Shown piece after piece: positions 13,029 to 49,655 of a DNA stretch of 64,000 nt. Where the stretch lies: the NCBI GenBank assembly GCA_914767715.1, contig OU612069.1:4774001-4838000 (forward strand). Direction: 5' to 3'. The stretch's first letter is position 1, and each line of letters starts with the position of its first letter. The translations under genes were made by a program, and so were the position numbers. This DNA comes from Membranipora membranacea. Lineage: Eukaryota > Bryozoa > Gymnolaemata > Cheilostomatida > Membraniporidae. Below the pieces are notes generated by a model. It worked only from the letters and a program-made list of their open reading frames with translations, was not told where the DNA came from and did no database searches.

Positions 13029-13169
13029 CTGTCTGGAAGGCTGGTCAAGGCACAGCTCCTCGCTTCTATTCTCTTCAATGATGAAATTTCCCCCAATCCT
13101 GCAGGTAATGTCTGTAGACCCTTATTACGACTAACATCTAACGACTCCAGTCCTTGCAGTGTGCAGATG
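13029..13169 (-). CDS. LRR exon A, internal exon encoding two leucine-rich repeats
   Basis: Seen: on the minus strand an AG acceptor (polypyrimidine-like stretch ending CCACAG, just above 13169) opens an uninterrupted 141-bp exon that ends CAG before a consensus GTGAGT donor (intron begins at 13028). The exon is phase 2-2, so it can be duplicated or skipped without breaking frame. It encodes 46 full residues: a first repeat with core LESLDVSRNKGLQTLP and a second with core LKRIEARSCALTSLP, about 23 residues each, matching the SHOC2/plant-intracellular-Ras-like LRR class (LxxLxLxxN...LPxxL). Known: such LRRs form curved protein-binding surfaces. Inferred: part of an LRR protein, possibly an immune-type receptor. 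No start, stop, signal peptide or other domain is visible nearby. The exon lies between two fragments of one degenerate LINE on the opposite strand. Two paralogous exons lie about 18.6 kb and 36.5 kb away. The open frame and intact splice sites argue against simple decay, but expression is unproven. Confidence 0.75.
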
Positions 13170-13354
13170 CTGTGGTGGATAAATTGCAGAATGTTAAAAT
13201 ACCATGCAATACTGCTTGTCAGTTGATGGAGCAAAGACAATTGAGCAACGCATTCTAACAATAGGAGAAAGTTTCAGTTTGATCAATTAACCATGTAAGT
13301 TGTAACTATCAGATATAGATGTTAGATGATTATATGTACTATGCATTTTTTAAT

Positions 13355-14045
13355 CCCATGTCAAAGAGATTAAATGAAACCTAACTCAATCATAGCAAAC
13401 ATTGAGAGAAAGCGTAAGTTTTTGAATGAAACCTTAGCTGCAGTCGTGTACACAAGGTAAATAAAACCAAAGATTGAATATAACCTTATTGCTCTACTTA
13501 ATATGTCTAAAAGAGTCCTAAGAGTCGATAGCAGATGTTTAAACATCATTAATCTAAATTATCTTAAATTTAGGCAAGGAAAAAGCATATCAATTTGATC
13601 ATAAAGCGGTACCATTATTTATACCTTTTAACCGTTTTCAAACTGACTTGAATTGGTCTCACTAGTGAACTTTGGTGCCAAATTATTTAATGACTTGCCT
13701 CTGACCATTAAGCTGTGCCCTGAGCTCGAATTATAAAAGTTAGACATCAAAATCCACTTTTTTGTGCAGAATTATTAAACTTTTCTACCTCATAATACTT
13801 GTATTTTTATTCTTCTTATTCTAAAGATTTCAACTGTAATCTCTATATTTTTTACGTTTTGGTTTTCCTAGTAGTTCAAACACACTTTCATTATTTATTC
13901 TTTTAAAAGAGATCCTTGGTACCCATGTTATGGACCATATTCCCTTGACTTATTAATACTACCAGAATGAATATGCAATATATATAAGTGATTATGTGAG
14001 CATTGTTTTAATTAAGGTTGTATACCTGTTGATTCATATTACTTT
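13355..14045 (+). pseudogene. LINE 3' fragment downstream of LRR exon A
   Basis: Seen: plus-strand remnant beginning with the segment shared with 12897-12950, continuing through FLNETLAAVVYTR-like and IEYNLIALLNMSKRVLRV-like frames, and ending with LFNDLPLTIKLCPEL followed by a K-D-K-I-H-F stretch near 13670-13770. This is the characteristic C-terminal FNxLPxxIK...FKxxLK motif of non-LTR retrotransposons. Multiple stops and frameshifts are present. The AT-rich tail (13780-14045) is shared with the 32.4-32.6 kb copy and partly with 50.5 and 59.8 kb. Confidence 0.7.
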
Positions 14046-15660
14046 TCACAGGTTTCAAGATTATATATCACAAAGCTAGAAGATATCCATAGATTGGTTC
14101 TCCCAAATGCCAATAATGCTGATATACCTATGGCATAAAATAATTAAATTAAAAATGGCAATCAGTTGCCAAAACTCTGGAAATTGGTATTGCATATCTT
14201 TTTCAGCATATCAGCAACACTCTGAATCATCAAAATCAAAAATATATTCTGCTGTGGCTGACCGGTGGCTTTATTTTTGTGTGCCTAATGCTGTTTGCTG
14301 ACAAAACACTAGGGTCTAGAAGTTTTGAAATATTACAACATAACGCAGTGGAATTGCTGTGTGTGCCCCTGAGCGATGTAAGATGGTTGAGATACAATGC
14401 TTGGATGCTGCTTGAATTTGCTACTCTGCGACAGGGATTTGCGAGATCTAGTTTCTATTATCAGTGCTAATAGTGTTGCTTGATGTGTAAATTTGATGTA
14501 AGGTTGTGATCTGGGCAAGATGCTGAAACTTGGTGGCCTGAACATAGAAGAGGCAAGCTCGTAAGACTTGACTAGTTATCTTATGGGTATTAAAAAATTT
14601 AGAGTGTATTGTGATCAGATTAACTCCCCTGTACTGAAATGACTTAGGTAAAATAATGAATAAATCTGCCAGACCATGTTTTACAATCCCAATTTTTCTC
14701 TGTCATGTGGAGGTTTCTAAAATCACTGGTTCTTCTATCATACCTAGGTACTCTTTATATTCTGCTTTCACAATTAAATGTGGGTTCCATTTTCATATTA
14801 CGAACAAAAATCTAAGTCGGCATTCAATACTCATAATCTGATATTATTTTAAGTGATGTCATGTTAGAAGACAAGACTACAGGTTCACATCAAATCTTCA
14901 GTGTGATATTAATATTGTATCACTGTATTGTGCTGAGTGTGAGGTCTCTATACAATTCAATGCTTTTCATTGTTTCAACCTTTGGTAAACAAAAGAATCT
15001 TTTATATGCTGTGTCTGATTCTTTTCAATAGAGGATAAATGTAGCACGTCAGCTTGAATCCAAAGTTTATATGAGAAAACTAAGAATAAATTTTAAGAAA
15101 TGCTGCATTAAATGAAGGGAAAATATGATAGAGTGACCCTAAATGATTCATCTATTGGTAACGTCACAGCGAGGTTACACGAAAAATTTGACGCGTCTAG
15201 CATTTGTAGAAGTGCATTTTAATTGATTCATCTGGTTAATAAAAGATAATTTTTTGCCAACATTCCATCATGTTTAATGAAATTCATCATTTTTCGCATT
15301 CATTTCATTAATTGAGTAGTGATTAAACCACCAAGTGTGGACAATAACTGTCAATCATTTTGTGATGGTTTCTGCATCAAATTGTAGAGGGAGATAAAGA
15401 AGGTACCATATAAGTCACTGGGAAGCAGAAATAAGATCAAGTTGATAACAAGATGCTGCTGTTTGTAAAGTAATTTTTGAAAATAGAAATTGGATCAAGT
15501 TGATTGAGTTATTTATGGACATGAAACCTGAATTGTTGACAGTAAGTAAATGATGATATAATTGCGTACTACACCTTCCAATGACGTTGCGTTGCCCTCA
15601 ATTGTGTGCCTCACTTCAGCTATATGTAGTGTCCCGTCTAGGTTTATAATTAAGTCTATT
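14046..15660. repeat. B2 block following LRR exon A
   Basis: No confident gene. It is very similar to 32641-34240 (about 97-99% by eye over 14.1-14.9 kb) and homologous to the right half of L blocks including the right inverted arm (15560-15650). The open frame at 14279-14470 (FEILQHNAVELLCVPL, VRWLRYNAWMLLEFATLRQG) is open here and at 32889-33080, but the arginine CGA is TGA in three L-block copies (7180, 22690, 57002), so it may be an old exon or chance. Confidence 0.65.
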
Positions 15661-17837
15661 GGTGCAATTGATTATGTTACAAATAATAATATAAGTTTGT
15701 TACCATATTTCAATTAAGGCCAAATAATCTAGTATTTACACTAAAATATACAGCCTATATCTTCTTCATAAAAGTGGCCACAGCTTTAGAGTGCCACGAT
15801 ACACAAATTAGTAATATTTTCTTCTAAACCTATCCGTGATAATTTATAATAATTTAGTTGGGGGACAAAAAGCCATGCTGCTAGATATTTTGTTATCACT
15901 CTCACATACCAATCTTCTGCAAATAAGTATAGGTGTACTCTTCATCTTTACCAGTACGGGATGCTCTAATTAAGTCATTTGCCTAGTAGGCCTGTTGAGA
16001 TTTTCAATCTCGGAATATTTTTCCATAAAGTAAGTGTTATTATTATAATTACCTAACTATGGATTTAATCACTTCATTTCATAAGAACAATACGGAATCT
16101 TCAAGTGGGAGATGTCGGATGGAAGTCAACAAAAGTATTTTGATATAGAGAAACATATTATAGTGATATGGCTTGGAGTGTTTTGAGCAATAGTAGGGCT
16201 TTTGGTTAGAAGATGTGTCTTTGCCCATTTAAGCCTGCATTACAAGACTAAAATCCATTTTTTACAGCACAATTGGAGCAATTTAATTAGTAAGAAGATA
16301 CTTCCTAATTTAGCGATATGTTGGTGTAGACTTGTGAAACAGATAGTGGTGTGAACTTGATCAGTGCTGCCAAAAAAAAAATTTCCTATGATATTCATCG
16401 TATATATGTAGCAAATTGGTACATATTGAATTTAATTCTTTTCAATAACTTGGACTATGAGCCTGTCTGCTAACATGTCTGACAAGCAACAAAACATATA
16501 AGGTGATAACAACAGTAATTATTTTGTCTTTTTGTAATGTGATGTAATGTGATGTAATCATTTTATCTTTTTTATTTTTTTTAAATACTCTTGAGAGAGA
16601 AACTGCTTTAGTTCATAAAATAAAGAAAGTGTAGCGGCACATCTGGCAGTTCAATGATTCGATGAAAAATCAAAATGTGTTGATACCTTTAGTCGGTGTT
16701 GATTTTTATTTTAAAGCACTCACCACCAGGTAAGTGGCTGACAGGATACCTGACCGTCAGCCTGTGTCCATGCAAACACAGTTGGGGGGGGGGGGACAAC
16801 CTGTACTGGACCGGTATAGACGGAAGGGCAACTTGTTTTATTGGACAGACCAATTTTGCTGAACAGGCATGAGCGGATAGTCAAAACGGAATGCCAAACT
16901 TCTTCAGCTTGATCCGAAGCCTTTACCGACTGGCCCCTAGTGAAATTACATTGTTGCTAGCATGGTGCCTAGTTGACATTATGCTGAGAACAGCTTAAAT
17001 TCAGAGATTGTATGTGCCAGTTAGACGTCTTCATCCATAAGAAGAGATGTTGGAGCCTGTGTAAAATTGCACAGGATAGTGAATGATGACAGGAGCACAT
17101 CTGAAAGCAAAAAAATCCCTCCTGGTGAGGAAGCCCTAACCTGAGCAACCCTGATTATCACAATAGACAACATTTTAAATGACTTAGATTTAGATATGTT
17201 TATAATCTTAGCAATCTTAGAAGTTGTGCCCATTTCATATTTTCTTAAAAGTTAGTAATTGATAGATCATTGAACTGAGGCAGTTCTTGACATTTGACGG
17301 GACAACCTGTACTGAAAAGGCATAAGCAGATGAAAAACTTGTTTTAATGGACAGACAGTTTTAGCTGGACGGATATACCAAATTGAATGGCCAATATTTT
17401 TTTCAGCTCAATGACCTCCTCCCACTTGCTCTAAATTAAATGACATTGGCGGCAAAGCAATTTTGGACTGATCATTTTAACAATTCACCCGGGAAAGAGG
17501 TATATGTTGGGTATACCATGAATTGGCTACATTTTTATAGAAATATAGGGGCAACAACAAATAACATAGTATACCACCTGTATTATTGAACCTTATCGGA
17601 ACAGACCTAAATAGACCTAGATGAACATGCATGCAATGGCTGGTTTATGCCACAAAGTAAATATTAAAAAACCGCTCAATTCATCCTCTTAATAACTAAT
17701 ATGGCACTTATATGTACTTCGTGTGACTCGCCTATTAAGACAATAATAGGGGAATGAGTGACAAAACAGCAAACTGATCAGTTTAAACATTGCTCCATCT
17801 CTAGCTCACATTTTGTGAGACTCACTTCTTTTTGCAA
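15661..17837. repeat. A monomer joined to partial H, then I and J
   Basis: No gene seen. A block at 16.65-17.05 kb, junction near 17060 into H (GCACAGGATAGTGAATGATG), then a second junction near 17285 into I (TTTGACGGGACAACCTGTAC), then J near 17605. It shows that the monomers recombine at internal points. Confidence 0.7.
16784..16795. repeat. Poly-G tract of A block
   Basis: Twelve G between ACACAGTT and ACAACCTGT. The same place has 6 G near 9460, 6 near 35310, 11 at 38372-38382 and 5 near 45030, so it is length-variable. Confidence 0.9.
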
Positions 17838-18307
17838 TCACTGTTTAGGGAGCCCTAATCTGAGCAACCCTGATTGTCACAATGATCAACATTGAAAATG
17901 AATTATGGTGATCTATTGATAATATTAGTAAAATTAGTAATTGAAAGATCATTGAACTGAGGAAATTCAAAGTTTGATAGGCCAAATAATCATTTAATCA
18001 GAAGCATTTCGCTCTATTTTTCAGTAACCAAGTTCTCTTATTCAATGGTAATCGGCTATATTGAGTTATTTTTACAGGATATTACATCCTTGGCATCGTA
18101 ACTTTTATCATAATTTTACTTGATCGAGTTGAAAGTCTCAGATGATCACTATCAAAAAATTTGTCTTATTGACTTACTGTACAAACTATTTTTATTTTAA
18201 ATTGGTAATGAGTGGATTTATTATCACATGAGGTGATGAGGACCAATTAATTTGCTAAATATAGTCTCATCATACTGCATTTTTGTTCTCTTCGATTTTC
18301 CTGCTAA

Positions 18308-18543
18308 TAATGAAAAATAGATATAATTAATCAAAATAATATTATGCCTTATTGATAACTTCCCTCATACTAGGAAAGGTTGCTCCAACACAATAAACTG
18401 ATAATCATAAAAACGAAAATTTAAATAATAATAAAAATGATATAAATATTTTTATTATGTACACGTATCTTATTGGATTAGTAAGTATTGCCCCTCATGT
18501 TCATGGAAGAAGACAGCTCAATAGAGCGATCAAGATGGAAGGT
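18308..18543. mobile_element. Unclassified insertion, about 236 bp
   Basis: Seen by comparison: the sister repeat at 3580-3605 reads CTTGCTAATTGATTCAATAT, whereas here about 236 bp separate GCTAAT from TGATATAATAT. The left half is A/T rich (AATAATAAAAATG, TATTTTTATTATG) and the right half has normal composition. No clear terminal inverted repeat or coding motif; class unknown. Confidence 0.5.
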
Positions 18544-18891
18544 CATTGATATAATATCTGATAGTTATTTTGTATCAAGTTTGCCCTGTATACTGAACAA
18601 AGTTCGAAAAAGTTACTGTCCAGTAGATTTAGGATAGGCTTGATGTATTCCATCCCATAGAAAGCTAAGTAAAGTAGATATTTCATGTCAGCTTGGAAAA
18701 GCTCCATTGGGGTATGTACTGAAATGCCGATAAACTGCAAACCCAACATTAGGAGCATAGAGCACCATTGAAAAGTGCTGCTTTACACTCTCAAGGATAT
18801 GCTATATTATTTATAGATCAGTTTTAGAGAATTGACATCGGTTTTGTAATATTTCAGATAGTTTAAGTGACACATAATATTATATCATTCA

Positions 18892-19316
18892 TTACACAAT
18901 CCATTACACGAATCCATTACAACTCCTACCTCTTCCTAAGCTTGTTTGTTATTTCGCTTCACTTTTTGCGCATAAGATAAACAATTTTTTAACACCTCCA
19001 TTTATATATAGAGGATTTAAAAACACTACCAAGTTCAATTTTCATGATAAACATTTACTTTTATATCATACAGACAATCTAAGATACAAAGTTTCTGCTA
19101 CATAAAATTCTTTACCCTTACATTTGAGATCTAAAGAGAAGTTCAGTTCATTCAAAACTTTACTTTTCAACCATATATTATCGACTTGACCAAAATCATT
19201 GATGATATTATTTCCCTTCTGTTTCTCTTTTTTTTGTTTTAAAAAAAATTGTTTTCTGGCACTGAGTGCAAAACATTTCGAATGAGATGACTTTGGATGC
19301 CAATAAAAAGTATATA
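18892..19316 (+). mobile_element. 5'-truncated CR1/L2-like LINE end with TA-repeat tail
   Basis: Seen: an insertion relative to the sister repeat at 3935-3940 (ATTATATCAT joined to ACCTAATTT there). In the plus strand it reads through CYFASLFAHKINNFL, then RYKVSAT, a stop, NSLPLHLRSKEKFSSFKTLL: the standard C-terminus of CR1/L2 LINEs (WNSLPxxLR...FKxxL) with the tryptophan codon lost. A 3' UTR and the tail AAAAAGTATATATA follow. A shorter copy with the same 3' end is at 57575-57720, as expected of 5' truncation in target-primed reverse transcription. It is a different family from the LINE flanking the LRR exons. Confidence 0.7.
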
Positions 19317-20614
19317 TACCTAATTTAAATTCGGTAAATGGCAATTCAAATCTGTATGCAGCATTATTTTGAAGAGTATTTAGAAATCATATCATTTGCT
19401 GGTGTCTTGCTGACCATTGTTCCAGTATGTTGTTATACATTCCCAAAACACTATTTCCAAGGAGGTATCGAAACATTGCGGCAGCAGAAATCATATCCCA
19501 TTACACTCATGCTATTGGTTGAGAAGACAATCCAATGCTCTCATATTATTGGAATGAGAAATGTCACCATTTTGATGAGAGAAAGCACTGAACGTTGTGA
19601 CAGTTTTATGAAAAAAGCATTACCACAATGCATCTCATTTTGAACATTATCGGTGGCTATGAGGTGGTTGTCACAGCATTATAAAACAAACTTCATGAGA
19701 TGATCATAAAATAATGCTGTAGTGATTGAAGAACTGTGATGCTATAACATTTTTAAAAATGAATACTTTTTGATAGCATGATCATAACATCATTAAAGTG
19801 CTAATTATAAGCTGCTTTTTTGCAAGTAACAGTGATGTATCCTGTCAATAATAATGTTTGACTAATACTTAGAACCAAGGATTCTGCCATAACTGACACT
19901 GAACATTGTGAATACCATTCTGTATCCTATTAGACCATAACCCAATCCCATCATTTACACACCATGTAATACTTGGTAAATTTGTATGCAAAACGTTGTT
20001 ACAATGTTCACCGTTTGCTGGGTTTTTGACCTTCATTTGTAACAAGAAGTCAAACAGTTTTTATGTTATGGAATAAAGGGATCACAAAAATTCCCAGGGA
20101 TCAATACATTATTAGCATTTATAAACTTGGATTGTTAGCTTTGTTATAGGTAAACTATAAAGAATAATCCCTTTTCTTTTATATCTACTGGTAGGAACAT
20201 ATAACAATTGTCTAAAACAAACTGCTCACATGGGTTTGTAAATAAAAGGCAATATCAACTTGTCTAGCATACTCTGCAAGTCCTCATCGAAAAGGTAATA
20301 AAACTGCCAACACAGGTCTCCAAAGTTTAAATCCACAGTTCTGCTTTTAAATTTTATCAATCGCAGTCACGTAGATATGTTGGTAGTTGGTTGTTTGACT
20401 GATCTAAATACAACAGCTTTATTTTCAGTTTTAACGCTTTGTATATTTGGTATTTATTGCAGGTCATTGCCATCATCTTAAGGGCAAATCCTCCTCCTGT
20501 ACCATTTGAATATTTACAAACATATTCAACTGTCAACAAATAGTCCATTGAAATAATGAAAGTGAAAGATTTGAAAGAGTTCAACAGATTTGCCACCTCT
20601 ATAAATGGGCTGCA

Positions 20615-23910: not shown

Positions 23911-25190
23911 ATGGGTGCAATTGATTATGTTACATAAATTCATAAAAATTTGTTTTCATATTTCAATTAAGGTGCAATAATCTAGTATTTACCCTAAAAT
24001 ATATAGCCTATATCTTGCTCATAAAATTGGTCACAGCTTTAGAGTGTCACAATACACAAATTAGTAATATATACTTCCAAACTTATCGGTGATAATTTAT
24101 CATCATTTAATTGAGGGACAAAAATTCATGCTGCTAGATATTTGGTTATCACTCGCACATACAAATCTTCTGCAAATAAGTGCAGGTATACTCTTAATCT
24201 TTACTATTAGGGGATGATCTAATGAATTCATTTGCCGAGCATTCAAGTAGGCCTTTTGAGATTTTCAATCTCAGAATATTTTTCCATAAGGTAATTGTTA
24301 TTATTAAAATTACCTAACTATTGATTTAATTACTTCTTTTTATAAGAATAATACGGAATCTTCAAGTGGGAGATGTGGGATGGAAGTCAACAAAAGTAAT
24401 TTGATATAGAAAAACATATTATTGTGATATGGATATTAGAGTATTTTGAGCAATAGTAGGGCTTTCGGTTAGAAGATGTGTCTTTGCCCATTTAAGCCTG
24501 CATTAAAAGAGTAAAATCCATTTTTTACAGCACAAATGAAGCAATTGAATATGTATGAAGATAATTCCTAATTTAGCGATATGTTGGTGTAGACTTGTGC
24601 AACAGATAGTGGTGTGAACTTGATCAGTGCTGCCAAAAAAATGAATTTACTATGGTATTCATGAGCCTGTCTGCCAACATGTCCGACAAACGACAAAACC
24701 GATAAGGTGGAAGCAACAGTAATTATTTTGTCTTTCTGTCCTGTGACAGTAATTAGTTTCTCTTTCTCTTTTTGTTTTTTGTAAATACTATTGAGAGAGA
24801 AACTGCTTTAATTCATAAAATTAAGAAAATGTAGCGGCACTTCTGGCAGTTCAATGATTCAATGAAAAATCAAGCTGTGTTGATACCTTTAGTTGGCGTT
24901 GATTTTTATTTTTAAGCACTAACCACCAGGTAAGTGGCTGAAAGGATACCCAACCGTCAGCCTGTGTCCTGTGTCCTGTGTCCTGTGTCCTGTGTCCTGT
25001 GTCCTGTGTCTTGGTATAGACGGAAGGGCCATTTGTTTTAATGGACAGACCAATTTTGCTGAACAGGTTTGGGCGGATAGTCAAAACTGATCTGATCCGA
25101 AGCCTTTACCAACTGGCCCCTAGTGAAATTAAATTGTTGCTAGCATGGTGCCTAGTTGACATTATGCTGAGAACAGCTTAAACTAATCAT
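23911..25190. repeat. A monomer, copy 3
   Basis: No gene seen. It contains the CCTGTGT minisatellite. It ends after ATGCTGAGAACAGCTTAAAC, where the single-copy segment begins; box J and block K are missing. Confidence 0.7.
24961..25010. repeat. Minisatellite, 7-bp unit CCTGTGT repeated seven times
   Basis: Seen directly: seven perfect copies of CCTGTGT in block A. Sister A blocks have one CCTGTGTCCATG followed by a G-run at this place, so this is a local slippage expansion that replaced the G-run segment. Confidence 0.95.
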
Positions 25191-26851: not shown

Positions 26852-26935
26852 CTTGAGAAGCAGGGTGTGAATGAACATTACTACACACATCTCAAGATAA
26901 ACTCGGTCAATAGCTGCCAGCCAAAGAAGAAGTAA

Positions 26936-30857: not shown

Positions 30858-31095
30858 TCAAAATATAATTGCATGTGTATGTGCTTTCATTTTCCTTGCG
30901 CCTAATTGAATTGATGATGCATTAACTAAATTATTTGCATTTAAAACCGGAGTTCCCAATTTGAAGTTGTCCACAAAGGAAAGTTGGCGTAATGGGGTCA
31001 GATCAATGTTGTCCTGACCTCTGTTAGCGCCGCTGTAGGGAAGCGCATCTTGCTTACTCAAAGGTACTACTGTTGCAAGCATCTGACTCACATAT
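30858..31095 (-). repeat. VPLSK element, copy 2 (longest open frame)
   Basis: Open for 77 codons from MSQMLATVVPLSKQDALPYS to a stop at 30858. Other copies have single stops or frameshifts, so this may be the best-preserved version of an old exon or transposon ORF. Confidence 0.4.
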
Positions 31096-31630: not shown

Positions 31631-31647
31631 GCAAGTATCTGACTCAC

Positions 31648-31788
31648 CTGTCTGGAAGGCTGGTCAAGCCACAGTTACTTGCATCTATACTCTTCAATGA
31701 TCGAATTTCCCCCAATCCTGCTGGTAACGTCTGTAGGCCTTTATTGAATCTAACATCTATCAACTCCAGTCTCGGCAGTTTGCAGATG
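31648..31788 (-). CDS. LRR exon B, internal exon encoding two leucine-rich repeats
   Basis: Seen: same architecture as the exon at 13029-13169: acceptor CCACAG, 141 bp, phase 2-2, donor CAG|GTGAGT, no stops. The cores read LELIDVRFNKGLQTLP and LKSIDASNCGLTSLP. By my hand count it differs from exon A at about 22 of 141 bases, 13 codons being amino-acid changing and 5 silent only. The first 170 bp of adjoining upstream intron differ at roughly 16 positions. Changes fall on the x positions of the LxxLxLxxN strand while leucines, N, LPAGLG and LTSLPD are fixed. Known: these x residues are solvent exposed on the concave face of LRR solenoids. The surrounding unit (roughly 31.2-34.2 kb) is the closest relative of the unit at 12.6-15.6 kb. 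Inferred: a paralogous cassette of the same LRR gene or gene family. Gene boundaries are not visible. Confidence 0.75.
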
Positions 31789-34240: not shown

Positions 34241-35889
34241 TAGTAGGCGAAATAATCTAGTATTTACTCTAAAATATACAGCCTATATCTTCTTTATAAA
34301 AGTGGTCACAGCTTTAGAGTGTCACGATACACAAATTTGTAATATTTTCTTCTAAACTTAACCGTGATAATTTATAATAATTCAGTTGGGGGACAAAAAG
34401 CCATGCTGCTAGATATTTTGTTATCACTCTCACATACAAATCTTCTGCAAATAAGTGTAGGTGTACTCTTAATCTTTACCAGTAGGGGATGCTCTAATTA
34501 AGTCATTTGTCGAACACTCAAGTAGGCCTGTTGAGATTTTCAATCTCGGAATATTTTTCAATAAAGTAAGTGTTATTATTATAATTACCTAACTCTGGAT
34601 TTTATTACTTCATTTCATAAGAACAATACGGAATCTTCAAGTGGGAGATGTCGGATGGAAGTCAACAAAAGTATTCTGATATAGAAAAGCATATCATTGT
34701 GATATAGTTATTAGAATATTTTGACCAATAGTAGGGCTTTCGGTTAGAAGATGTGTCTTTGCCCATTTAAGCCTGCATTACAGGACTAAAATCAATTTTT
34801 ACAGCACAATTTCAGCAATTCAATTTGTAAGAAAATAATTCCTAATTTAGCGATATGTTGGTGTAAACTTGCGAAACAGATAGTGGTGTGAACTTGATCA
34901 GTGCTGCCAAAACATGAATTTACTATGGTATTCATCGTATATATGTAGCAAATTGGTATATATTAAATTTAATTTTTTTCAATAACTTGGACTATGAGCC
35001 TGTCTGAAACCATGTCTGACAAACAACAAAACCGATAAGGTGGTAACAACAGTAATCGTTTTGGCTTTCTGTCATGTGAGATTAATTATTTTATCCTTTT
35101 GTTTTTTGTAATACTTTTGAGAGAGAAACTGCTTTAGCTCATGAAATTAAGAAAGTATAGCGGCACATCTGGCAGTTCAATGGGTCAATGAAAAAATCAA
35201 GCTATGTTGATACATTTAGTCGTTGTTGAATTTTAATTTTAAGCACTCACCACCAGGTAAGTGGCTGACAGGATACCCGACCGTCAGCCTGTGTCCATGC
35301 GGACACATTAGGGGGGACAACCTGTACTGGACCGGTATAGACGGAAGGGCAACTTGTTTCAATGGACCGACCAGTTTAAGCTGGACGGATCGACCAAATT
35401 GAATAGCCAATTTTTTTTCCGCTCAATGACCTCCTCCCACTTGCTCTAAATTAAGTTACATTGGCATCAAAGCAATTTTGGGCTGATCAATTTAACAAGC
35501 CACCTGGGAGAGAGGTATGTGTTGGGTATACCATGAATTGGTTACATTTTTTATAGAAACAGAGGGGCAACAAAAAATTACATAGTATACCACCTGTATT
35601 ATTGAACCTTATCGGAACAGACCTAAGTTAGAACTATATGAACATAAAAAAGACAAAAAGAAAAGGTAATTAGAAAATGTCCAGTTATGTCTTTTCTCTT
35701 TACATGAGAGCTCCAATTCAGAATCGATCAATGAAACTTAATGTAGATGATCAATTCTAAATTGTGGGCATGATAAATATTGCTAAAATTGTTAAATTGT
35801 TAATATCGAATCGTAATATAATTGCATATGTATGTGCTTTCATTTTCCTTGCGCCTAATTAAATTGATGATGCACCAACTAAATTATTT
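34241..35889. repeat. A monomer fused to I, J and K'
   Basis: No gene seen. Junction near 35365 inside the homologous part of A and I (GACC(A/G)ACCAG to TTTAAGCTGGACGGAT), a second junction near 35630 where J is cut (GACCTAAGTTAGAAC) and K' begins. Internal homologous recombination is the simplest explanation. Confidence 0.7.
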
Positions 35890-36045
35890 GCACTTCAAAC
35901 CGGAGTTCCCAATTTTAAGTTTTCCTCAATGGAAAGTTAGTGTAATGGGGTCAGACAAAAGTTGTTTTGACCTCTTTTAGCGCCGCTGTAGGGAAGCGCA
36001 TCTTGCTTACTCAAAGGTACTACTTTTCCAAGCATCTGACTCACA
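35890..36045 (-). repeat. VPLSK element, copy 3
   Basis: Reads SQMLGKVVPLSKQDALPYSG then GQNNFCLTPLH followed by a stop. It belongs to the LRR unit that lost its exon to the segment starting at 36.29 kb. Confidence 0.4.
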
Positions 36046-36049
36046 TGTT

Positions 36050-36290
36050 TGTTTCAGATATTAATAGGTATTTCTAGTGATGCAAGTTGCGTGATTCAGA
36101 TTTGAAACTCAATCTATAATTGCTGACTAAAAATATAGACTTAATATGTAAATATAAATGCTTAATCAAACTTGTTTTCTAGTGATGTATGTTATGCGAT
36201 TCAATTTATCAATCCATAGTGACATTTCACTCCATCCATAAAAATGTGGAATATTCACTAGCTTTAGCTTCTGACTGGAATCTGAAATCA
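36050..36290 (+). pseudogene. 5' stub of the LRR-unit LINE region, truncated
   Basis: Homologous to 12500-12720 and 31100-31340 (TTTCTAGTGATG, TTATGCGATTCAATTTATCAA, TTCTGACTGG) but it stops at the point where the single-copy segment 36.29-38.28 kb begins. The LRR exon and the rest of the LINE are absent from this unit. Confidence 0.6.
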
Positions 36291-38275: not shown

Positions 38276-39429
38276 GTTAGTCGGTGTTGATTTTTATTTT
38301 TAAGCACCCACCACCAGGTAAGTGGCTGACAGGATACCCGACCGTCAGCTTATGTCCATGCGGACACAGTTGGGGGGGGGGGACGACAACCTGTACTGGT
38401 GTAGACGGAAGGGCAACTTGTTTTAATGGACAGACCAATTATGCTGAACAGGCATAGGCGCATAGTCAAAACGGAATGCCCAACTTCTTCAGCATGATCC
38501 GAAGCCTTTACCGACTGGCCCCTAGTGAAATTACATTGCTGCTAGCATGGTGCCTAGTTGACATTATGCTGAGAACAGCTTAAATTAAGAGATTGTATGT
38601 GCCAGTCAAAAGTCTTCATCCAAAGGAACAGATGTTATAGCTCGTGTAAAATTTACACAAATTTGGAGCAGTCAAGTGCTCTAAATAGCAAGATTGCTCT
38701 TGTATGATGACTGTAATGACTAAATACTTTAAAACACCACTGACTATTACTGACCCTTATTTGAGCGGACCTAAATAGACCTACATGAGCATGCATGCAA
38801 TGACTTGTTCATGTTCTAGCTTGGAATTAAATATCCAATCAAAGGAAGCAAGCATTTTCACATTTACTACACGGCACTTAGACATACTTCTTGTGTTACA
38901 CTTATTTAGTCTAAGAGGGGAATAAGTGACAATAACAGCAGGTACTCCCATTATTATGTCATAAGCCTGATCAGTGTAAACATCCCTCAATCTCTAGCCC
39001 ATATTTGGTGATGCTCACTTCCTTTTGCCATTATTGATCTAAGCCAAGATCTTGCCAATGTGACGCTCATCGAATTAAGTCACAATATATCGAAACAGAC
39101 TTTTAGAAACCAATCTGATCAAACACTATTTTCTCTTGACAGACTCATTCGAGAACAAACTACTGCAGCATGTCTAGCAATCCTGTTTCAGGAGAGCGAG
39201 TTGTGAAACTGAATGAAAATGACAAAAGGAGGGGGCATTCTTACTTGGAAAATAGCCAGTCTTGTCTTTTCTAATTAAATGAGAGCTCCAATTCAGGATT
39301 GATTAATCAAACTTAATTGAATTGTGTGCATGATAGATTTTTGTAGAGTTTCCGAAAAAAAAAATATATAAGCAAAAGGAAGTTAAATATTAAATCAAAA
39401 TCAGACTTCCCAATTTTAGGTTCTTCTCA
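38276..39429. repeat. A-J-K monomer, copy 5
   Basis: No gene seen. A block resumes at TCGGTGTTGATTTTTATTTT (38281), G-run at 38372, J near 38770, K to 39.35 kb. Confidence 0.75.
38372..38382. repeat. Poly-G tract of A block
   Basis: Eleven G at the same relative position as in the A block at 16784, followed by an extra ACG before ACAACCTGT. Confidence 0.9.
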
Positions 39430-39610
39430 AAAGACAGTTAGTCAAATTTATCCCTGTTGTCAGGGGAATACCACGGCCACTGGGATTTAATAAAAACACT
39501 GAAAGGCAATAAATCTATTACAAAATGGGTGCTCAATCAGTCTGTGTCACAATCCCAATGTTTCTGTCCAGCGACCAGCAATGCATTATAAGTAACACCA
39601 AACAATACTG
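39430..39610 (-). repeat. E5 element, copy 3 (frame broken)
   Basis: Homologous to the other E5 copies, but a roughly 15-bp deletion removes part of the SCKRLGHR region and shifts the frame. It is followed directly by a shortened start of the H block. Confidence 0.5.
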
Positions 39611-42230
39611 AATATACTGAAAATATGACTGTGTATACAGAAGCCTACTGTATCAGCCGAATGATTACTGAAAATAAGCGAATGCTCTCATAAATGATTG
39701 ATCCTACTAATCTGTGACTTTCACTTGTACAGAGACAGCTAGAGCTTGATAGTTGTATCATCACAAAATGCAGGGGTGTTTCTTAGATCAAATAATCATT
39801 GATATACAGGCAGCTGAATAGAGTGCTATATTGTGGATTTAAGGTTGATTGTATGAAATTTATCCCCTTGGTTTACAAGATTGTGCCAATTTCTTACCTC
39901 AACAGGTACTTTTAAATTAATCCTTATTAATAAATGTCTTATTTGGCTTCGTGAAATATTAATAGAATGAAAACAGAATTAACACGGTATCAAGAAATTC
40001 GCATGTGAAGTTTTTTAATGCGAAAGTTTACAAGATCACTTTGCAGTGAGGGTAAGCCAAAGACTAACTGAGTACTACATTGATAGTTCATTACTTGCCA
40101 CAGGGCCAACTGATACCTAATGTAACTACAGCTGCTATCCCGACAAATTCAATACAAATTCAACTCGACTTGTTTTTTTCAGGCATGACCTCATCTTGGC
40201 CGACAACTGTAATGTAAAATGAGCAGTTATTCTTTTTTTTTCAGTTATCGCTTTTGTTGTTACAGCTCATGCCCGCCCCATTAATTTTTGATTGTTTTAC
40301 TCGTTTGATAATTTTCCAATCAATTTTTACCTAAAACACGCCACCAAGACCAGTAAATTAATTAATTTGTAAGGCCCAGTTATAGGGGAGCGGGGGACTT
40401 ACAGCACCTCTGTCAAACCCAAAAAGCTTCATCTCTTTAACCCAAAAAAGTTTATTTGGTGTTCCACTGCGCTGCGCTGCACAGGATAGTCATCGATGAC
40501 AGGATCACATCTGGAAGCTGAAAATCCCTCCTGATTAGGAAGCCTTAACCTAAGCAACCCTGATTATCACAATAAGCAACATTTTAAATGATTTAGATTT
40601 ATTTATGATTATAATCTTAGCAATCTTAGAAGTTGTGCCCGTTTCAGATTTTCTTAAGGATGTCAAATAACTCTATTTCAGTAAAAAAAGTGATCATACT
40701 TGATAGTAGTCGGCTACATTTTAGTAATTGCTACGGGAAATACACCCTAGGCATCGTACTTTTGAACTTGAGATGACTAAATGGTATTGGAAATCTCAGT
40801 TTATCTTACTCTTTACCAGAAAGTGATGACGATGAATGGAGTCAGTTGCCCAATAATCAAGTTATTGATGTTCCTAAACTCGTTTGGCAGATCAAGCAAT
40901 ATTTATCAAGCTGGTCTACATGGCCATACAGAGCAGCACAAACCTTTCTTGCACAAATTAACAACAGTTCAAGGCTGTGAATGCCTTCCCAAAACTCTCC
41001 TGATTTGATGACTGCTGGCCTGATTCATGCCTGGGTTGTATTGCTATTTAGGTGAACTGAGATTTTCAGTCCAAGAATATTTCTTGCCAAAGTAATTGTT
41101 ATTATTATGATTACCAAATTTTAGATTCACTAAGTTATTTTTATAAATACAGGATTTTCAAGTGGGAGATGTGGAGTGAACGCCATCACAAATACTTTCA
41201 AGAATTAATATCAAAAAACATATTATTGTGATAAAATTATGGTTATTTAAGTACTGCACAACTATCCGGTAGAAACTGTGTCGTTTGCTTATTTAAGCCT
41301 GCATGACAAGAATAAGTACCATTTTCAACAGCATGATAAGAGCGTTTGAATTTGTAAGAACAGAATTCCTAATTTGGCAATACGTGAGTGTAGACTTGTG
41401 ATACAGATAGTAGTTTGAACTCAATCTGTGCTGCCCATAATTATTTATTATTATTATGAATTTGTAGGATATTCATTCTTAATATGAGCCAATTGTTACA
41501 TTTTAAATGAAATTATTTTCAGATACATAGACTTTGAGCTAGCCTGCCAGCATGTCCGACAATCAATAAAACTAATCAGGTGTTAACGACTGTGATAATA
41601 ATTAATTTCCCTTTTTGTTTGCGGTATATACTTTTGAGAAATAAACTGCTTTAGCTCATCAAATTAAGAAAGTATAGCCTCATATCTGACTGTGCATTGA
41701 TACAATGGTAAATCGTTAATTTTCATTTTTAAACAGCAACCAGAGGTGTTCGGCTGATGGGATTCCATGCTGTCCACCTGTGTCCATTTGTCCTTTGCCC
41801 ATCTGTTGGACACAATTGATGGGACAAACTGTACTGAAAAGGCATAAGCAGATGAAAAATTTGTTTTAATGGACAGGCAGTTTTAGCTGGACGGATAGAC
41901 CAAATTGAATGGCCAATTTCTTTTCAGCTCCATGACCTCCCACGTGCTCTAAATGAAATTACATTGGCGGCAAAGCGTTTTTGGACTTATCAATTTAACA
42001 AGCCACCTGGGAAAGAGGTATGTGTTGGGTACACCATGAATTGGCTAAATTTTTTATAGAAACATTGGGACAACAAAAAATAACATAGTATACCACCTGT
42101 ATTATTGAACCTTATCGGAGCAGACCTAAATAGACCTAGATGAACATGCATGCAATGGCTGGTTCATGCAACAAAGCTAAATTTAAAAAACCGCTCAATT
42201 CATCCTTATATTAGCTATATAGGCACTTAG
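39611..42230. repeat. H-I-J monomer
   Basis: No gene seen. H with short G-run near 40392, CAAGGCTGTGAATGCC near 40970, I near 41820, J near 42125. It passes to the M block after TTAGCTATATAGGCACTTAG, the same junction as at 54.28 kb. Confidence 0.75.
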
Positions 42231-43960
42231 ATTGAATACTCTTTGATAGCATGATCATAACATCATTAAAATGCTAATTATAAGCTGTTTTCTCGCATTT
42301 AACAGTGATGTATCATCATGTCAAAAATAATGTTTGACTAATACTTAGAACCAAAGATTCTGCTATAACTGACTCTGAACTCGTTTGCTGGGTTTGTGAC
42401 CTTCATTTGTAACAAGAAGTCAAATAGTTTTTAGGTTATGGAATATAGGGATCACAAAAATTCCCAGGGATCAATATATTATTAGCATTTATAAACTTGG
42501 ATTGTCAGCTTTGTGATAGGTAAACTATAAAGAACAATCCCTTTTCTTTTATGTCTACTGGTAGGAACATTTTTAATTACCAGGTGCCCAGAGAGTCTCA
42601 TTGTGAGATTGGTTGGAATTATGAATGGATTACGCTGGTTTACTTGGTGCAATAGCCAATTACAATAATTTTCCCCTTTGACTGCCGTAACAAAGAGGAT
42701 TGCATCATGATATTCCTGTGACGTAGAATAGTATGTAATGTATTTCCTATGTTTGTGCCTACAATCTGAGCAATTGACTATAGCCAACGTCACCAGGCAC
42801 TGATTTTCTTCATCCTTGATTTGGGTACACCAATCTACACATATTTCAAATTAAGACCAACAAAACGATGTTCTTTTATAAAAGACTCAGGCAATCAAAT
42901 TAGAGTCCATAATTGCAAACAGTATGATATGGTCTTCTACTCTTTAGCTCATCTGCAGGAGTGAACTCTCACTGCAGGAGCCATTGAATATTCTCAGGGT
43001 AGATAATAATAGGATAATCTCATTTATTGAACCCACCATACACAGACCATTTATAAGAGATGTTATGAAGGAACATTACACAGGTCACTAGAGATAATAA
43101 TCAGCCTTCACTCTATTGTTTCTTAGGGGATTAGGCATCTATTTGCAACATCACAACGAGGGCAGAAAAAAAAGTTGACGTTTCTAGCATGTTTAGAAGT
43201 GCATTTTATTTGAGTTATCTGGTTAATAAAAGATAATGTTTTGCCAACATTTCATCATGTTTTATGAAATTCATGATTTTTTGCATTTATTTCGTGGATT
43301 AAATAGTAATTAAACCACCAAGCCTTAACAATAACTTTCAATCATTTTAAGCTTATTCGCCTGTCAATAGACGTCTGTTGTCAAGGCGACCATATTATTT
43401 ACTAGGCGTGCATTCAGGTGAATGTAATGGCACTAAAAATTATTTTTAGCCAATAATAGAGGCGACCAAGTCTGATGAAAACAGATTTACAACAGCGATT
43501 CGAATAAACACATTAATCACAATTTTACCATGTTTGTTTTTGAGTAATGGCTGGTGACCTTGACTTCTTTGCTGCTGTCCTGTTATCATAACATTGACGC
43601 CTAGAATTAAATCTGTTAGCCACTTGTTAGGCGTGCTATTATTAAGGGGTCCAAAATTAACTCAAGCATGTTTGATCACGGCCAGGTTTTATTGAGTGCC
43701 TCTCCTTCAATAAATGCCTATAAATCATTTATTGAATTATTATCTTGGACGTGTATTAACCAGCGAATAAGATTTTTGTGATGGTTTCTGCATCAAATTT
43801 AAAAAAATGTAGGGGGAGATAAAGAGGAAACCATATAAGTCACTGAGAAGCTGAAATAACATCAAGTTGATAACAAGATGCTGCTGTTTGTAAAGGAATT
43901 TTGAAACTCGAAATCCGATCAAAATTGATTGGGTTTATAATTAAGTATGTGGGTGCAATT
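42231..43960. repeat. Truncated M-L unit carrying a MITE
   Basis: M block starts at TTGAATACTCTTTGATAGC, then near 42570 jumps into the interior of L (TTTTAATTACCAGGTGCCCA), and near 43138 jumps again to the end of L. Left inverted arm missing, right arm partial. The element at 43352-43771 is inserted. Confidence 0.7.
43352..43771. mobile_element. Inverted-repeat element (MITE-like), about 420 bp
   Basis: Seen: begins CTTATTCGCCTGTCAATAGA and ends with GCGAATAAG. The outer 24 bp are inverted repeats with about four mismatches. It interrupts a repeat that elsewhere reads CAATCATTTTGTGATGG (for example 8116). The target duplication is unclear because the site is a T-run (ATTTT on both sides is possible). 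The interior is richer in GC than the surroundings and has further short GGCG/CGCC motifs. No coding capacity. Superfamily undetermined. Confidence 0.75.
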
Positions 43961-45946
43961 GATTGTGTTACAGAAAATAATAAAACATTGTTACCATTAT
44001 TTCAATTAAGGTGCAATAATCTAGTATCTACCCTAAAATATACAGCCTATATCTTGCTCATAGAACTGGTCACAGCATTAGAGTGTCACTATACACACAT
44101 TAGTTGAGGGACAAAAAATCATGCTGCTAGATATTTTGTTATCACTTGCGCATACAAATCTTCTGTAAATAAGTGTAGGTATACTTTTAATCTTTACCAG
44201 TAGGGGATGATGTAATGAAGTCATTTGCCGAACAATCAAGTAGGCCTATTGAGATTTTCAATCTTGGTATATTTTTCCGTAAAGTAATTGTTATTATAAT
44301 CATTACCTAACTATGGATTTAATTACTTCTTTTTATAAGAATAATACAGAATCTTCAAGTGGGAGATGTGGGATGGAAGTCAAAAGTATATTGATATAGA
44401 AAAACATATTATTGTAATATGGTTATTAGAGTATTTTAAACAATAGTATGGCTTTTGGTTAGAAGATGTGTCTTTGCCCATTTAAGCCTGTGTTACAAGA
44501 TTAAAATCCATTTTTCAACAGCACAATTGGAGCAATTGAATTTGTAAGAAGATAATTCCTAATTAAGCGATATGTTGGTGTAGACTTGTGAAACAGATAG
44601 GTGTGTGAACTTGATCTTTGCTACCAAAAAAAAATGAATTTACAATGGTATTCATCGTATATATGAAGCAAATCGGTACATATTGAATTTAATTATTTTC
44701 AATAACTTGGACTATGAGCATGTCTGCCAACATGTCTGACAAACAACAAACCGATAAGGTGGTAACAACAGTAATAATTTTGTATTTTTGTCCTGGGACA
44801 GTAGTAATTTTCTCTTTTTTGTTTTTGTAAGTACTTTTGAGAGAGAAATTGCTTTAGTTTATATAATTAGGAAAGTGTAGCGAAACATTTGGCAGTTCAA
44901 TGATTCAATGAAAAATCAAGCTGTGTTGATACCTTAAGTCGTGTTGATTTTTATTTTTAAGCACTCACCACCAGGTAAGTGGCTGAAAGGATACCCGACC
45001 GTCAGCCTGTGTCCATGCGGACACAGTTTGGGGGACAACCTGTACTGGTACAGACGGAAAGGCAACTTGTTTTAATGATCAGAAAAATTTTGCTGAACAG
45101 GCATGGGCGGATAGTCAAAACGGAATGCCCAACTGCTTCAGCTTGATCTGAAGCCTTTACCGACTGGCCCCTAGTGTATTTACATTATTGCTAGCATGGT
45201 GCCTAGTTGACATTATGCTGAGAACAGCTGAAATTAAGAGATTGTATGTGCCAATTAAAAGTCTTCATCCACAAGAAGAGATGTTAGAGCCCGTGTAAAA
45301 TTTACACAAATTTGGAGCAGTCCAGTGCTCTAAATAGCAAGATTGCTGTTGTATGATAACTGTAATGACTAGATTCTTTAAAACACCACCTGTATTACTG
45401 ACCCTTATTTGAGCAGACCTAAATAGACCTAGATGAGCATGCAATGACTGGTTCATGTTCTAGCTTGAATTTAAAAAAGCAATCATAACAAGCAAGCATT
45501 TTCACATTTACTACACAGCACTTAGACGTGCTTCTTGTGTTACACTTGTTTAGACTAAGAGGGGAATAGGTGACAATAACAGCAGGTAATCCCATTATTA
45601 TGTCTTAAGACTGATCAGTGTAAACATCCCTCAATCTCTAGCCAACATTTGGTGATGTTCACTTCCTTGTGCCATCATTGATCTAAGCCATGATCTTGCC
45701 AATGCGACACCGATCGAATTAAGTCACAAACCAATCTGATCAAACACCTGTTTTCTCTTGACATACTCATTCGAAAAAAACTACTGCAGCCTGTCTAGCA
45801 TTCCTGTTTAAGTAGAGCGAGTTGTGAAAATGCATAAAAAGGACAAAATGAGGAGGCAATCTTACTTGGAAAATAGCCAGTCTTGTCTTTTCTCTTTTCA
45901 TGAGAGCTCCAATTCAGAATCGATCAATCAAACTTAATGTAGATGA
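43961..45946. repeat. A-J-K monomer, copy 6
   Basis: No gene seen. Standard order: GCTGCTAGATATTTTGTTAT near 44125, A near 44955, J near 45420, K near 45780. Confidence 0.75.
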
Positions 45947-46262
45947 TCAATTTAATTGTGTGCATGATAAATAAATGTGTTTTGAGTTTCCAAAAAAATA
46001 TATGTACGCCAAAGGAAAGTTGTTAAATATTAAATCAAAATCAGAGTTCCCAATTTTAGGTTTCTTTTTCAAAAGACAGTTAGTCAAGTTTATCCCTGTT
46101 GTCAGGGGAACACCACGGCGCTGGGATTTAATAAAAAATTGAAAAGCAATAAATCTATTACAGAATAGGTGCTCAATTAGTCTGTGTCCCAATTTCTTAC
46201 AACCCAGATGTTTCGGTCCAGTGCCCAGCATTGCATTATAAGTAGCACCAAACAATACTTAA
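45947..46262 (-). repeat. E5 element, copy 4 (longest open frame)
   Basis: Open for 102 codons from MFGATYNAMLG through KHLGCKKLGHRLIEHLFCNR and beyond into sequence that in other copies contains stops. The C-terminal part is low-complexity and probably not coding. Confidence 0.4.
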
Positions 46263-48894
46263 TAACTCTGTCAAGGTGTGAATGCCTATTACGATACAAT
46301 ACAATTAATTTAACATAAGTGCGGTACCCAGTCATTACAATGTGCAGTGAAGTGAAAAGTTATGTTTCTTATCTAACATGTCAGCTCTTTGTTGTTTGAT
46401 CTGAACCAAATTTAGTTTGCAGAACGTGATTGGCACTGAAATATTAAGAGAATGAAAACAGAATTATCATGGAATCACTGGTTGCCAAGAAATTCACACG
46501 TGAAGTTTGTTCATGCAAAAGTTTACAAGATCACTTTGCAGTGAAAGTATGCCAACGGCTAACCGAGTACTAAATTGTGAGTTCATTACTTGCAACAGGG
46601 CCAACTAATACCAAGGGTCACTTCAGCTGCTATTCCTGCAAATTCAATACAAATTTAACTTGACTTGATTTTTTTTCAGGAATGACTTCATCTTGGCCAA
46701 CAACTGTAATGTAAAATGATAAGTTATTCTGTTTTTTCAGTTATCGCTTTTGTTGTGACAGCTCATGCCTGCCCAATTAATTGTTGATTGTTTTATTCGT
46801 TTGATAATTTTCTAATCAAGTTTTACCTATAAAACGCCTCCAAGACCCAGTCAATTTATTATTTTGTTAGGCCCGTTGGAGGGGAAGGGGGGGGGGTCTT
46901 ACAGTGTCCCTGTCAAACCAAAGAAGCTTAATCTCTTTAACTTAAGAGTTTATTTGGTGTTCCACTGTGCTGCACAGGATAGTCAATAATGACAGGATCA
47001 CATCTGAAAGCCAAAAATCCCTCCTGATTAGGAAGCCCTAACCTGAGCAACCCTTATTATCACGATAAACAACATTGTAAATGATTTAGATTTAGATAAG
47101 TTTATAATCTTAGCAATCTTAGAAGTTGTGCCCATTTCTTATTTTCTTAAAAATTAGTATTTGATAGATCATTGAAATGAGGAAGTTCTAAGTTGAGTTT
47201 CCTGTTGAAAATGATGTCAAATAACTCTGTTATAGTTAAAAAAGTTTTCGTACTTGATAGTAATCGGCTGCATTTTAGTAATTGCTAAGGGATAATACAC
47301 CCGCTATGTAGGCGAATTCAGATTTTCAATCCAAGAATATTTCTTGCCAATGTAGTTGTTATTATTATAATTACCAATTTATATATTCACTTAGCTGTTT
47401 TTATAAATACAGGATTTTCAAGTGGGTGATATGGAGTGAAAGTCATCACAAATATTTTCCTGAATTAATATCAAAAAATATATTATTTGATAAAATTATG
47501 GTTATTAAAGTACTGTACAACTATCGGTTAGAAACTGCGTTGTTTGCTTATTCAAGCCTGCATTACAAGAATAACTACCCTCTTCAACAGCATGATAAGA
47601 GCGTTTGAATTTGTAAGAAGAGAATTCCTAATTTGGCAATACATGGGCGTAGACTTGTGATCCGTGCTGCCCAAAGTTACTTATTATTATTATGATTATG
47701 ATATTCATTGTTTATTTGAGCCAATTGTTACATTTTAAAAGCATTTAATTTCTGTTGCATAGGCTATGAGACAGCCTGCCAGCTATCCGACAATCAACAA
47801 AAACTAATCAGGTGGTAACGACTGTGACAATAGTTAATTTCCCTTTTTGCTTGCGGTATATACTTTTGAGAAATAAACTGCTTTAGTTCATCAAATTAAG
47901 AAATAATAGCCTCATATCTGACTGTGCATTGATACAATGGTAAATCGTTGATTTTCATTTTTAACCACCCACCAGAGGTGTGCGGCTGATGGGATTCCAA
48001 ACCGTCCAAGTGTGTCCATGTGTCCTTTGCCCATCTGTTGAACACATTTGACGGGACAACCTCTATTGAAAAGGCATAAGCAGATTGAAAATTTGTTTTA
48101 ATGGACAGACCGTTTTAGCTGGACGGATAAACAGATGGGCAACAAAAATTACATAGTATACCACCTGTATTATTGAACCTTATCGGACCAGAACTAAATA
48201 GACCTAGATGAACATGCATGTAATGGCTGGTTCATGCCAGAAAAATTAAAAAACCGCTTGATTCATCCTTAAATTAACTAATATGGCACTTATATGTATT
48301 TCTTGTGACACGCCTATTAAGACAATAATAGGGGCATGAGTGACAAAACAGCAGACTGATCAGTTTAAACATTCCTCCATCTCTAGCCCCCAATTTGTGA
48401 AACTCACTTCTTTTTGCAATCATTGATTTAAGTTTCATATATTGCCAATGCAGCGTCAATCGAACCAAGTCACAATTTATTAAAGCAGTATTTTAGAAAC
48501 GAGTCTTTGATTTGGTCAAACACTTATTTTCAATTGACATACTCATTCGAGAACAAATTACTGCAGCCTGTCTAGTAATCCTGTATAAGGAGAGCAAGTT
48601 GTGATACTGTTGAGATATTTGTATACTAGATGCATAAAAATGACAAAAGGAGAAGGTGATGTTAATTTTAAAATGTCCAGTTATGTCTTTTCTCTTTACA
48701 TGAGAGCTCCAATTCAGTGTCGATCAATGAAACTTAATAGATGGCCAATTTTAAATTTTGTGCACAATAAATATTGCTAATATTGTCAATTGTTAATATC
48801 GAATCGTAATATAATTGCATATGTATCTGCTCACATTTTCCTTGCTCCTAGTTGAATCGATGATGTACTAACTAAAATATTTGCATATAGATCC
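46263..48894. repeat. H-I-J-K' monomer of the third LRR unit
   Basis: No gene seen. The part holding CCAAGGCTGTGAATATC is deleted near 47300 (ATACACCC joined to GCTATGTAGG). I near 48050, J near 48195, K' to 48.8 kb. Confidence 0.75.
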
Positions 48895-49000
48895 GGAGTA
48901 TCAGACCAATGTTGTCCTAACCTCTTTTAGCGTCGCTATAGGGAAGCGCATCTTGCTTACTCAAAGGTACTACTGTTGCAAGCATCTGACTCACATGTTT
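48895..49000 (-). repeat. VPLSK element, copy 4 (truncated)
   Basis: Reads SQMLATVVPLSKQDALPYSD, then a stop where other copies have glutamine, and lacks the LHQLSFEENLK part through a deletion. It belongs to the unit of the exon at 49515-49655. Confidence 0.4.
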
Positions 49001-49129
49001 CTTTCTAGGTATTTCTAGTGGTGCAAGTTACGTGACTCGGGTGTGAAACTCAATCTATAATTGCTGACTAAAAATATAAGCTTATTTTACAAATATAAAT
49101 GCTGAAAACACGCATATTGCTAGTGATCC

Positions 49130-49495
49130 TAGTTGTGCGATTCAATTTAACAATTCACAGTGACATTTCACTCCTTCCATAAAAAAAGTACGGAACATTC
49201 CCTAGCCTTGGCTTCTTACTGGTATAATTGTTATGAATTGTAACTCAATGCATCATTGACAGATGTTATGACAGTGTCTTATTTTGATTTTGATTGCATT
49301 TTCTCAAACCAATTTTTCAGAGCACGTCCTTCATGCAGTTTGACAAATTTAAATATTTACGAGAAATTTTAGATGAAAATATGAATTTAAAATCCTGTGT
49401 CATTGAGATAAAACCCACTTAAAGAAAACTTTTAAGACAAATCATGTTACTCAAAGGTAGCAAACCAATTGTACAAACAGTGTGATATACTACCG
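49130..49495 (+). pseudogene. LINE reverse transcriptase fragment upstream of LRR exon C
   Basis: Diverged copy of the 12.6-kb and 31.2-kb LINE fragments (CATTGACAGATGTTATGACAG-type segment, then a FKYL-like frame), broken by stops. It is followed directly by the exon at 49515-49655. Confidence 0.6.
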
Positions 49496-49514
49496 TTGCG
49501 AGCATCCCACTCAC

Positions 49515-49655
49515 CTGTCTGGAAGGCTGGTCAAGCCACAGTCCCAAGCGATTATCTTCTTCAATGATTGAATTTGCCCCAATCCTGCAGGTAACTTCTG
49601 TAGGCCCTTATTCCAACCGAACTCTAACGACTCCAGTCCTGGCAGTGAGCAGATG
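49515..49655 (-). CDS. LRR exon C, internal exon encoding two leucine-rich repeats
   Basis: Seen: third 141-bp phase 2-2 exon on the minus strand with AG acceptor and CAG|GTGAGT donor. The cores are LESLEFGWNKGLQKLP and LKKIIAWDCGLTSLP. It is the most different of the three at the exposed positions (tryptophans at both strands), yet keeps every framework residue. Against exon A I count 14 replacement codons and 2 silent-only codons; against exon B, 15 and 4. Its intron flanks are more diverged than those of exons A and B, so the exon has stayed open through more neutral change. It sits between a LINE fragment at 49130-49490 and a second at 49855-50580. Downstream the unit goes into a post-LINE block and the E5 element instead of block B2. 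Inferred to be functional or recently functional LRR coding sequence. Confidence 0.75.

Follow-up and report, generated by a model that had tools for sequence, protein, structure and literature searches.

Diversified leucine-rich repeat exons of the bryozoan Membranipora membranacea as probable parts of a tandem family of LRR-ROCO-caspase receptors

Three short exons in the genome of the bryozoan Membranipora membranacea (339.34 Mb) share a leucine-rich repeat (LRR) framework and differ at many positions of its concave face, which raises the question of what kind of gene they belong to and whether selection has shaped their variation. The stretch of DNA analyzed, here called the window, comprises 64,000 nucleotides (C5:4774001-4838000). 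The three exons are probably serial LRR-domain exons of one member of a tandem family on chromosome 5 (C5), encoding LRR-ROCO-caspase receptors in which the sensing face has diversified and the switch and the protease have stayed constant. In gene order they are:

49515..49655, minus strand: LRR exon, copy 3; 141 bp, phase 2-2, AG/GT; the most 5' of the three; protein-search genome match at C5:4823517-4823654; joins the other exons in frame
31648..31788, minus strand: LRR exon, copy 2; 141 bp, phase 2-2, AG/GT; second in gene order; protein-search genome match at C5:4805650-4805787; joins the other exons in frame
13029..13169, minus strand: LRR exon, copy 1; 141 bp, phase 2-2, AG/GT; third in gene order; joins in frame

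Each exon encodes two leucine-rich repeats in 46 full codons of one open frame. An earlier interpretation made from the letters alone (the sequence-only reading) had described three intact exons of this kind, and AG before and GT after were indeed found in 3/3. Its counts were reproduced upon recounting: 17/46 residues are variable, all three copies differ at positions 13, 14, 33, 35, 37 and 38, and the pairs show 13:5, 14:2 and 15:4 replacement to silent-only codons; positions 3 and 29 likewise differ in all three copies. The fixed leucine framework that it proposed holds apart from L10, which is Ile in copy 2, so that not every leucine is kept. Nucleotide identity was 119/141 for copies 1 and 2, 117/141 for copies 1 and 3 and 114/141 for copies 2 and 3, and in most 100-column blocks of their flanks copies 1 and 2 are 85-98% alike, with a few blocks lower. 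Single exons scored below the Pfam LRR cut-offs, while the three joined reached 49.7 bits with LRR_4 (cut-off 27); as a protein query the joined exons gave 24 LRR matches of 27-42% identity, none of them close. No fourth copy of the exon was found in the window by tblastn.

With a gap of more than 60 kb taken as a cluster boundary, the window exons are the three highest-coordinate members of an 8-exon cluster, the remainder of which lies below the window and is followed by two further modules (region L063):

C5:4769170, 4760648, 4740540, 4710637 and 4701737: five further LRR exons of the cluster
C5:4694764-4696685: Roc-COR exon, a long open exon lying 5 kb 3' of the cluster's lowest-coordinate LRR exon
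about C5:4692191-4694067: caspase exons, 3' of the Roc-COR exon

The Roc-COR exon opens with half an LRR, in the same phase as the LRR exons, and continues into Roc and COR-A. The Roc domain scored 29.6 bits with Pfam (cut-off 27) and carries the P-loop GKTKAGKTS. The presence of COR after Roc was supported by structure comparison, in which an AlphaFold model of the exon (27 sequences; pLDDT 81.3, pTM 0.78, residues 587-639 poor) retrieved only ROCO proteins at Foldseek ranks 1-20, including the Roc-COR structure 3dpu; Chlorobium Roc-COR ranked first (E 3.2e-18) and LRRK1/2 followed, with query TM-scores of 0.30-0.54. After the Roc-COR exon come seven exons with AG/GT borders and matching phases, separated by introns of about 0.13-0.26 kb and forming a single open frame of 388 aa. 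This frame matched Pfam Peptidase_C14 with 93.3 bits (cut-off 21.4) over profile positions 1-204 of 233. CED-3 was the best solved relative, and the SHG and QAC motifs align with its catalytic His/Cys dyad; with both residues kept the caspase looks complete and is predicted to be a protease. Pfam scans of exons, which covered part of the gene and in which the GTPase match was Roc, gave no NACHT or NB-ARC domain.

LRR, Roc-COR and caspase exons were placed in one gene because the splice phases agree and the frames stay open. Window exons 3-2-1, the Roc-COR exon and two linker exons, when joined, give 852 codons without a stop, and splicing from LRR to LRR and from LRR to Roc-COR is predicted from these phases and frames. 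The order LRR exons, Roc-COR exon, caspase was observed in 3/3 clusters read at the 3' side (L063; L066/L067; L068), one of them inverted; below the cluster at 4.454 Mb no Roc-COR was found in the first 10 kb (L065), and it was present in the next 10 kb (L068). That the caspase and Roc-COR are separate neighbouring genes, only LRR-Roc-COR forming one protein, is very improbable. Such a division would suit a joint at L059:1765-2600 (C3:14.743 Mb), where the final half exon of an LRR array continues into a caspase piece in a different frame with no Roc-COR between, showing that the modules can move; on the other side, phase and frame run unbroken through the seven exons 3' of Roc-COR, these exons recur in all three clusters read, and one protein of another bryozoan, Watersipora subatra P0057, spans both modules. 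The joint itself is apparently a recombinant or decayed gene. An LRR-caspase plan lacking the GTPase was rejected as a general arrangement, the joint being out of frame and Roc-COR intervening in three C5 clusters.

Among the three copies of the Roc-COR exon compared, differences lie mainly in the first 40 residues, and the Roc-COR part is nearly invariant. Between L063 and L066, 9.5 nonsynonymous differences fall on 93 sites of the LRR part versus 8 on 1391 sites of the rest (Fisher p 2e-8); the same contrast gave p 4e-7 for L063 versus L068 and p 2e-4 for L066 versus L068. Relatives of the Roc-COR exon were also seen on contigs no longer than about 13 kb (P0026-P0053 and P0055; sources ena, jgi, lgn). 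Over the part that was scored, P0055 shares 98% identity with the exon, and its source therefore contains DNA of Membranipora membranacea or of a near species.

The LRR exon belongs to a large family. Exon 1 as a DNA query gave 40/40 full-length scored matches (the best 40 of 107 candidates), all on C5, and exon 3 as a protein query gave at least 150 relatives (the best 150 of 1338 candidates), with 92 on C5, 56 on C3 and 2 on C8, which are lower bounds. The 92 scored C5 matches form 18 clusters of 1-10 exons at 4.17-7.62 Mb, that is, over 3.4 Mb; the 17 gaps between clusters measure 64-254 kb, 15/17 of them 100-190 kb, and two adjacent clusters are inverted. The tandem array of the sequence-only reading was right in that the clusters are spaced like tandem genes, and wrong in that there are 18 of them and not one continuous array. 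The division into 18 clusters with such gaps also led to a single giant gene with a hundred cassettes being set aside. The description of the exons as repeat-borne cassettes found no support, the copies sitting in duplicated genomic segments. At C5:4191-4207 kb and 5995-6011 kb, 1.8 Mb apart, four exons each occur with nearly identical spacing, as after recent segmental duplication.

A second, dense array of the same 141-bp exon lies at C3:14.49-14.74 Mb (L060, L062, L059), with 54/150 of the scored matches and an exon spacing of about 390 bp in places; in L062 the array precedes another Roc-COR exon. Two adjacent exons in L060 encode an identical peptide, and the exons proposed there as cap and N-terminus had no window match at E <= 1.

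Whether the concave face has been diversified by selection was judged from eight concave positions (9, 11, 13, 14, 33, 35, 37 and 38). The pairwise ratio of nonsynonymous to synonymous changes per site (dN/dS) in 30 copies was 2.4 at these positions and 0.43 elsewhere. Parsimony counts on a tree of 40 intact C5 exons gave a concave dN/dS of 3.1 (p 8e-5) and 0.61 elsewhere; on a second tree, built without the eight codons, the values were 2.42 (p 5e-4) and 0.61, and 135 of 201.5 replacement changes fell on the eight sites. The count was repeated without the window copies because the eight sites had been named from them, and the concave value remained 2.3 (p 9e-4, 37 exons). Base differences per pair among the 30 copies were 0.351 in concave codons and 0.079 in other codons. 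In the flanks, the corresponding figure for the best alignable block was 0.086 upstream and 0.096 downstream (435/435 pairs), values which, as best local blocks only, lean low; diversity in the adjacent 151 bp of intron was 0.092. Farther columns of the global flank alignment reach 0.2-0.39, which taken alone would tell against the comparison with introns; these values arise where the copies share no common sequence. Exposed sites thus exceed both the remaining codons and the alignable introns, as the sequence-only reading had anticipated. Stops were likewise rare, with one TAA among the 92 scored C5 matches, and among 44 distinct C5 exons for which flanks were also read, 40 were intact, three lacked the GT donor and one was truncated; the earlier statement that no stop or splice loss has occurred is accordingly true of the three window exons and not of the wider C5 family. 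With the concave excess and the rarity of stops, its view of the locus as one for recognition proteins, in which the framework is fixed and the concave residues have diversified, was supported. A truncated exon, consisting of the first 20 codons behind a good acceptor, was also noted at L019:1901-1960; the intact exon lies about 140 bp downstream of it.

Several points weigh against this interpretation of gene and selection. Pairwise dN/dS over all 46 codons was 0.85, and the tree-based value over all codons was 1.27-1.29 (p 0.08 and 0.05), not clearly above 1. The exons tested were the best matches to two window exons and do not sample the family at random, and tree-based counts may be disturbed by gene conversion between copies. 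On the side of the gene model, COR-A scored only 23.7 bits, under the Pfam cut-off of 35.3; p10 is split over three exons, where the Peptidase_C14 match ends before the profile does; the 3' side was read in just 3 of 18 clusters; for the C5 gene, the regions read showed neither a start nor a stop codon; and the LRR array at C3:14.743 Mb adjoins a caspase piece without Roc-COR, and therefore arrangements differ. In principle the pattern could reflect decaying copies that are under relaxed constraint or contain a hot spot of mutation or conversion, and not selection for diversity. Some copies have in fact decayed, dN/dS over all codons is near 1, and synonymous changes per site are denser in concave codons (2.86 vs 1.28 in other codons), perhaps because of multi-hit codons. 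Framework sites are nevertheless held at 0.61, the concave codons stand out from other codons and flanks to the extent given above, and a hot spot would lift silent changes equally; this explanation is very improbable.

Based on the preferred reading, a diversified LRR face joined to a constant Roc-COR switch and caspase, a mechanism can be proposed. The LRR arc would bind a variable ligand, either pathogen-derived or a self/non-self ligand of the colonial animal; binding would alter the nucleotide or dimer state of the Roc-COR GTPase, which would bring the attached caspase domains together and activate them by proximity, and the activated caspase would trigger cell death or a cascade of proteases. 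New specificities would arise as phase-symmetric LRR exons are duplicated and exchanged, the switch and the protease remaining constant. Sensor, GTPase switch and executioner protease would then form one polypeptide resembling an inflammasome without an adaptor, varied by duplication and perhaps by alternative or somatic joining of LRR exons, with Roc-COR-caspase near-identical across megabases; this wider scheme is offered tentatively, with slightly more doubt than belief.

Two variants of the proposal concern how such genes are used. One is that a cluster's LRR exons are used alternatively, transcripts taking subsets of them to give a combinatorial repertoire as described for the ROCO genes of brown algae. 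Because the intact exons read share length and phase, any subset keeps the frame, and the algal parallel (PMC11378527, in the part consulted) speaks in the same direction; serial use would be assumed by default, and such exons stand in dense series in the C3 paralogue, so that alternative use is possible and the less expected course. The other, rather unlikely, is that the same genes serve mainly in colony allorecognition (fusion or rejection), their variation being polymorphism at recognition sites. Membranipora membranacea is colonial, according to the part of the source consulted (PMC10290214), and a death effector that stays constant while the sensing face is hypervariable suits self/non-self discrimination equally; the many copies per genome suit a polymorphic locus no better than a repertoire, and the present sequence data do not separate allorecognition from pathogen sensing.

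Other observations in the window concern traces of the repeated unit. Short copies of the exon donor region (GTGAGTCAGATGCTTGCAAC) without an exon lie at 31065-31091, 36018-36051, 48968-48998 and 63408-63441 and are perhaps remnants of lost exons. The intron segment adjoining the exons is also copied at 35633-36281 and 63283-63918; the latter suggests a further unit just beyond the end of the window, and no match near C5:4838 kb was present among the 150 best-scored of the 1338 candidates. CCTGTGT is repeated seven times in tandem at 24961-25010. Searches of the window with Rfam (gathering scores) and for tRNAs gave no matches.

If the gene model is correct, an animal phylum with little immune genomics possesses a large, self-contained receptor family coupling recognition directly to a caspase, and its diversity arises by LRR-exon duplication as reported in brown-algal ROCO genes, which would be a striking parallel across distant eukaryotes. 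ROCO proteins would become direct candidates for intracellular immune or allorecognition receptors. No LRR-ROCO-caspase protein was found among the titles and abstract openings listed for ROCO or bryozoan together with caspase or LRR, and within those bounds four features are new: a caspase, exons with two LRRs, a tandem family extending over megabases, and an animal as host.

Among known systems, TLR, VLR and plant NLR had been named in the sequence-only reading as the nearest kin, which does not hold for exons preceding Roc-COR and caspase exons. TLR proteins have a signal peptide, a transmembrane segment and TIR; in the regions read, the module after the bryozoan LRRs is Roc-COR-caspase. 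VLR genes are assembled from intron-less LRR cassettes copied into one gene; the bryozoan units are exons with AG/GT borders, in the window as among the intact C5 exons (40/44). Animal and plant NLRs are alike in outline, with an LRR sensor, a nucleotide switch and a death output, and differ in that the bryozoan switch is a Roc GTPase and not NACHT or NB-ARC in the exons scanned. By domain content, the LRR link being drawn from splice phase, the predicted gene is a ROCO, and the receptor likely functions like an NLR without being one. The Roc-COR fold is common to LRRK1, LRRK2 and bacterial Roco, which were the best structural matches; LRRKs bear a kinase after COR, at the place where the bryozoan gene has a caspase.

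When the COR-caspase part was searched against proteins, at least three matches were obtained among 7993 scored candidates. Watersipora subatra P0057 ('uncharacterized protein', 853 aa) aligns in one chain with the query from residue 179, a position within Roc, through the whole of the caspase, with 29% identity over 884 columns and with SHG and QAC kept; it thus carries the later part of Roc, COR and the caspase together, as predicted for Membranipora membranacea. P0056 of the same species ('caspase-8-like') has COR and then caspase in one chain, again with SHG and QAC kept. Both are protein models, which show no LRR array and for which caspase is the sole listed Pfam domain.

The closest precedent for the bryozoan exons is the LRR-ROCO family of the brown algae Ectocarpus and Saccharina, for which duplicated LRR exons, selection on concave sites and alternative splicing are described in the part of the account consulted (PMC11378527). 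Alternative splicing is there a reported feature of the genes, while the bryozoan exons are known from genomic sequence. According to the same portion, which mentions no caspase, such as lies 3' of COR in the bryozoan gene, the LRR-ROC-COR order, predicted for the bryozoan protein from splice phase, and the phase-2 LRR exons are common to both (PMC11378527). The algal exons are 72 bp long with one LRR and those of the bryozoan 141 bp with two, the phase being the same, and algal positive selection falls on four concave sites (14, 16, 18 and 19), the spacing of which matches that of positions 9, 11, 13 and 14 in the bryozoan exon (PMC11378527, in the part consulted).

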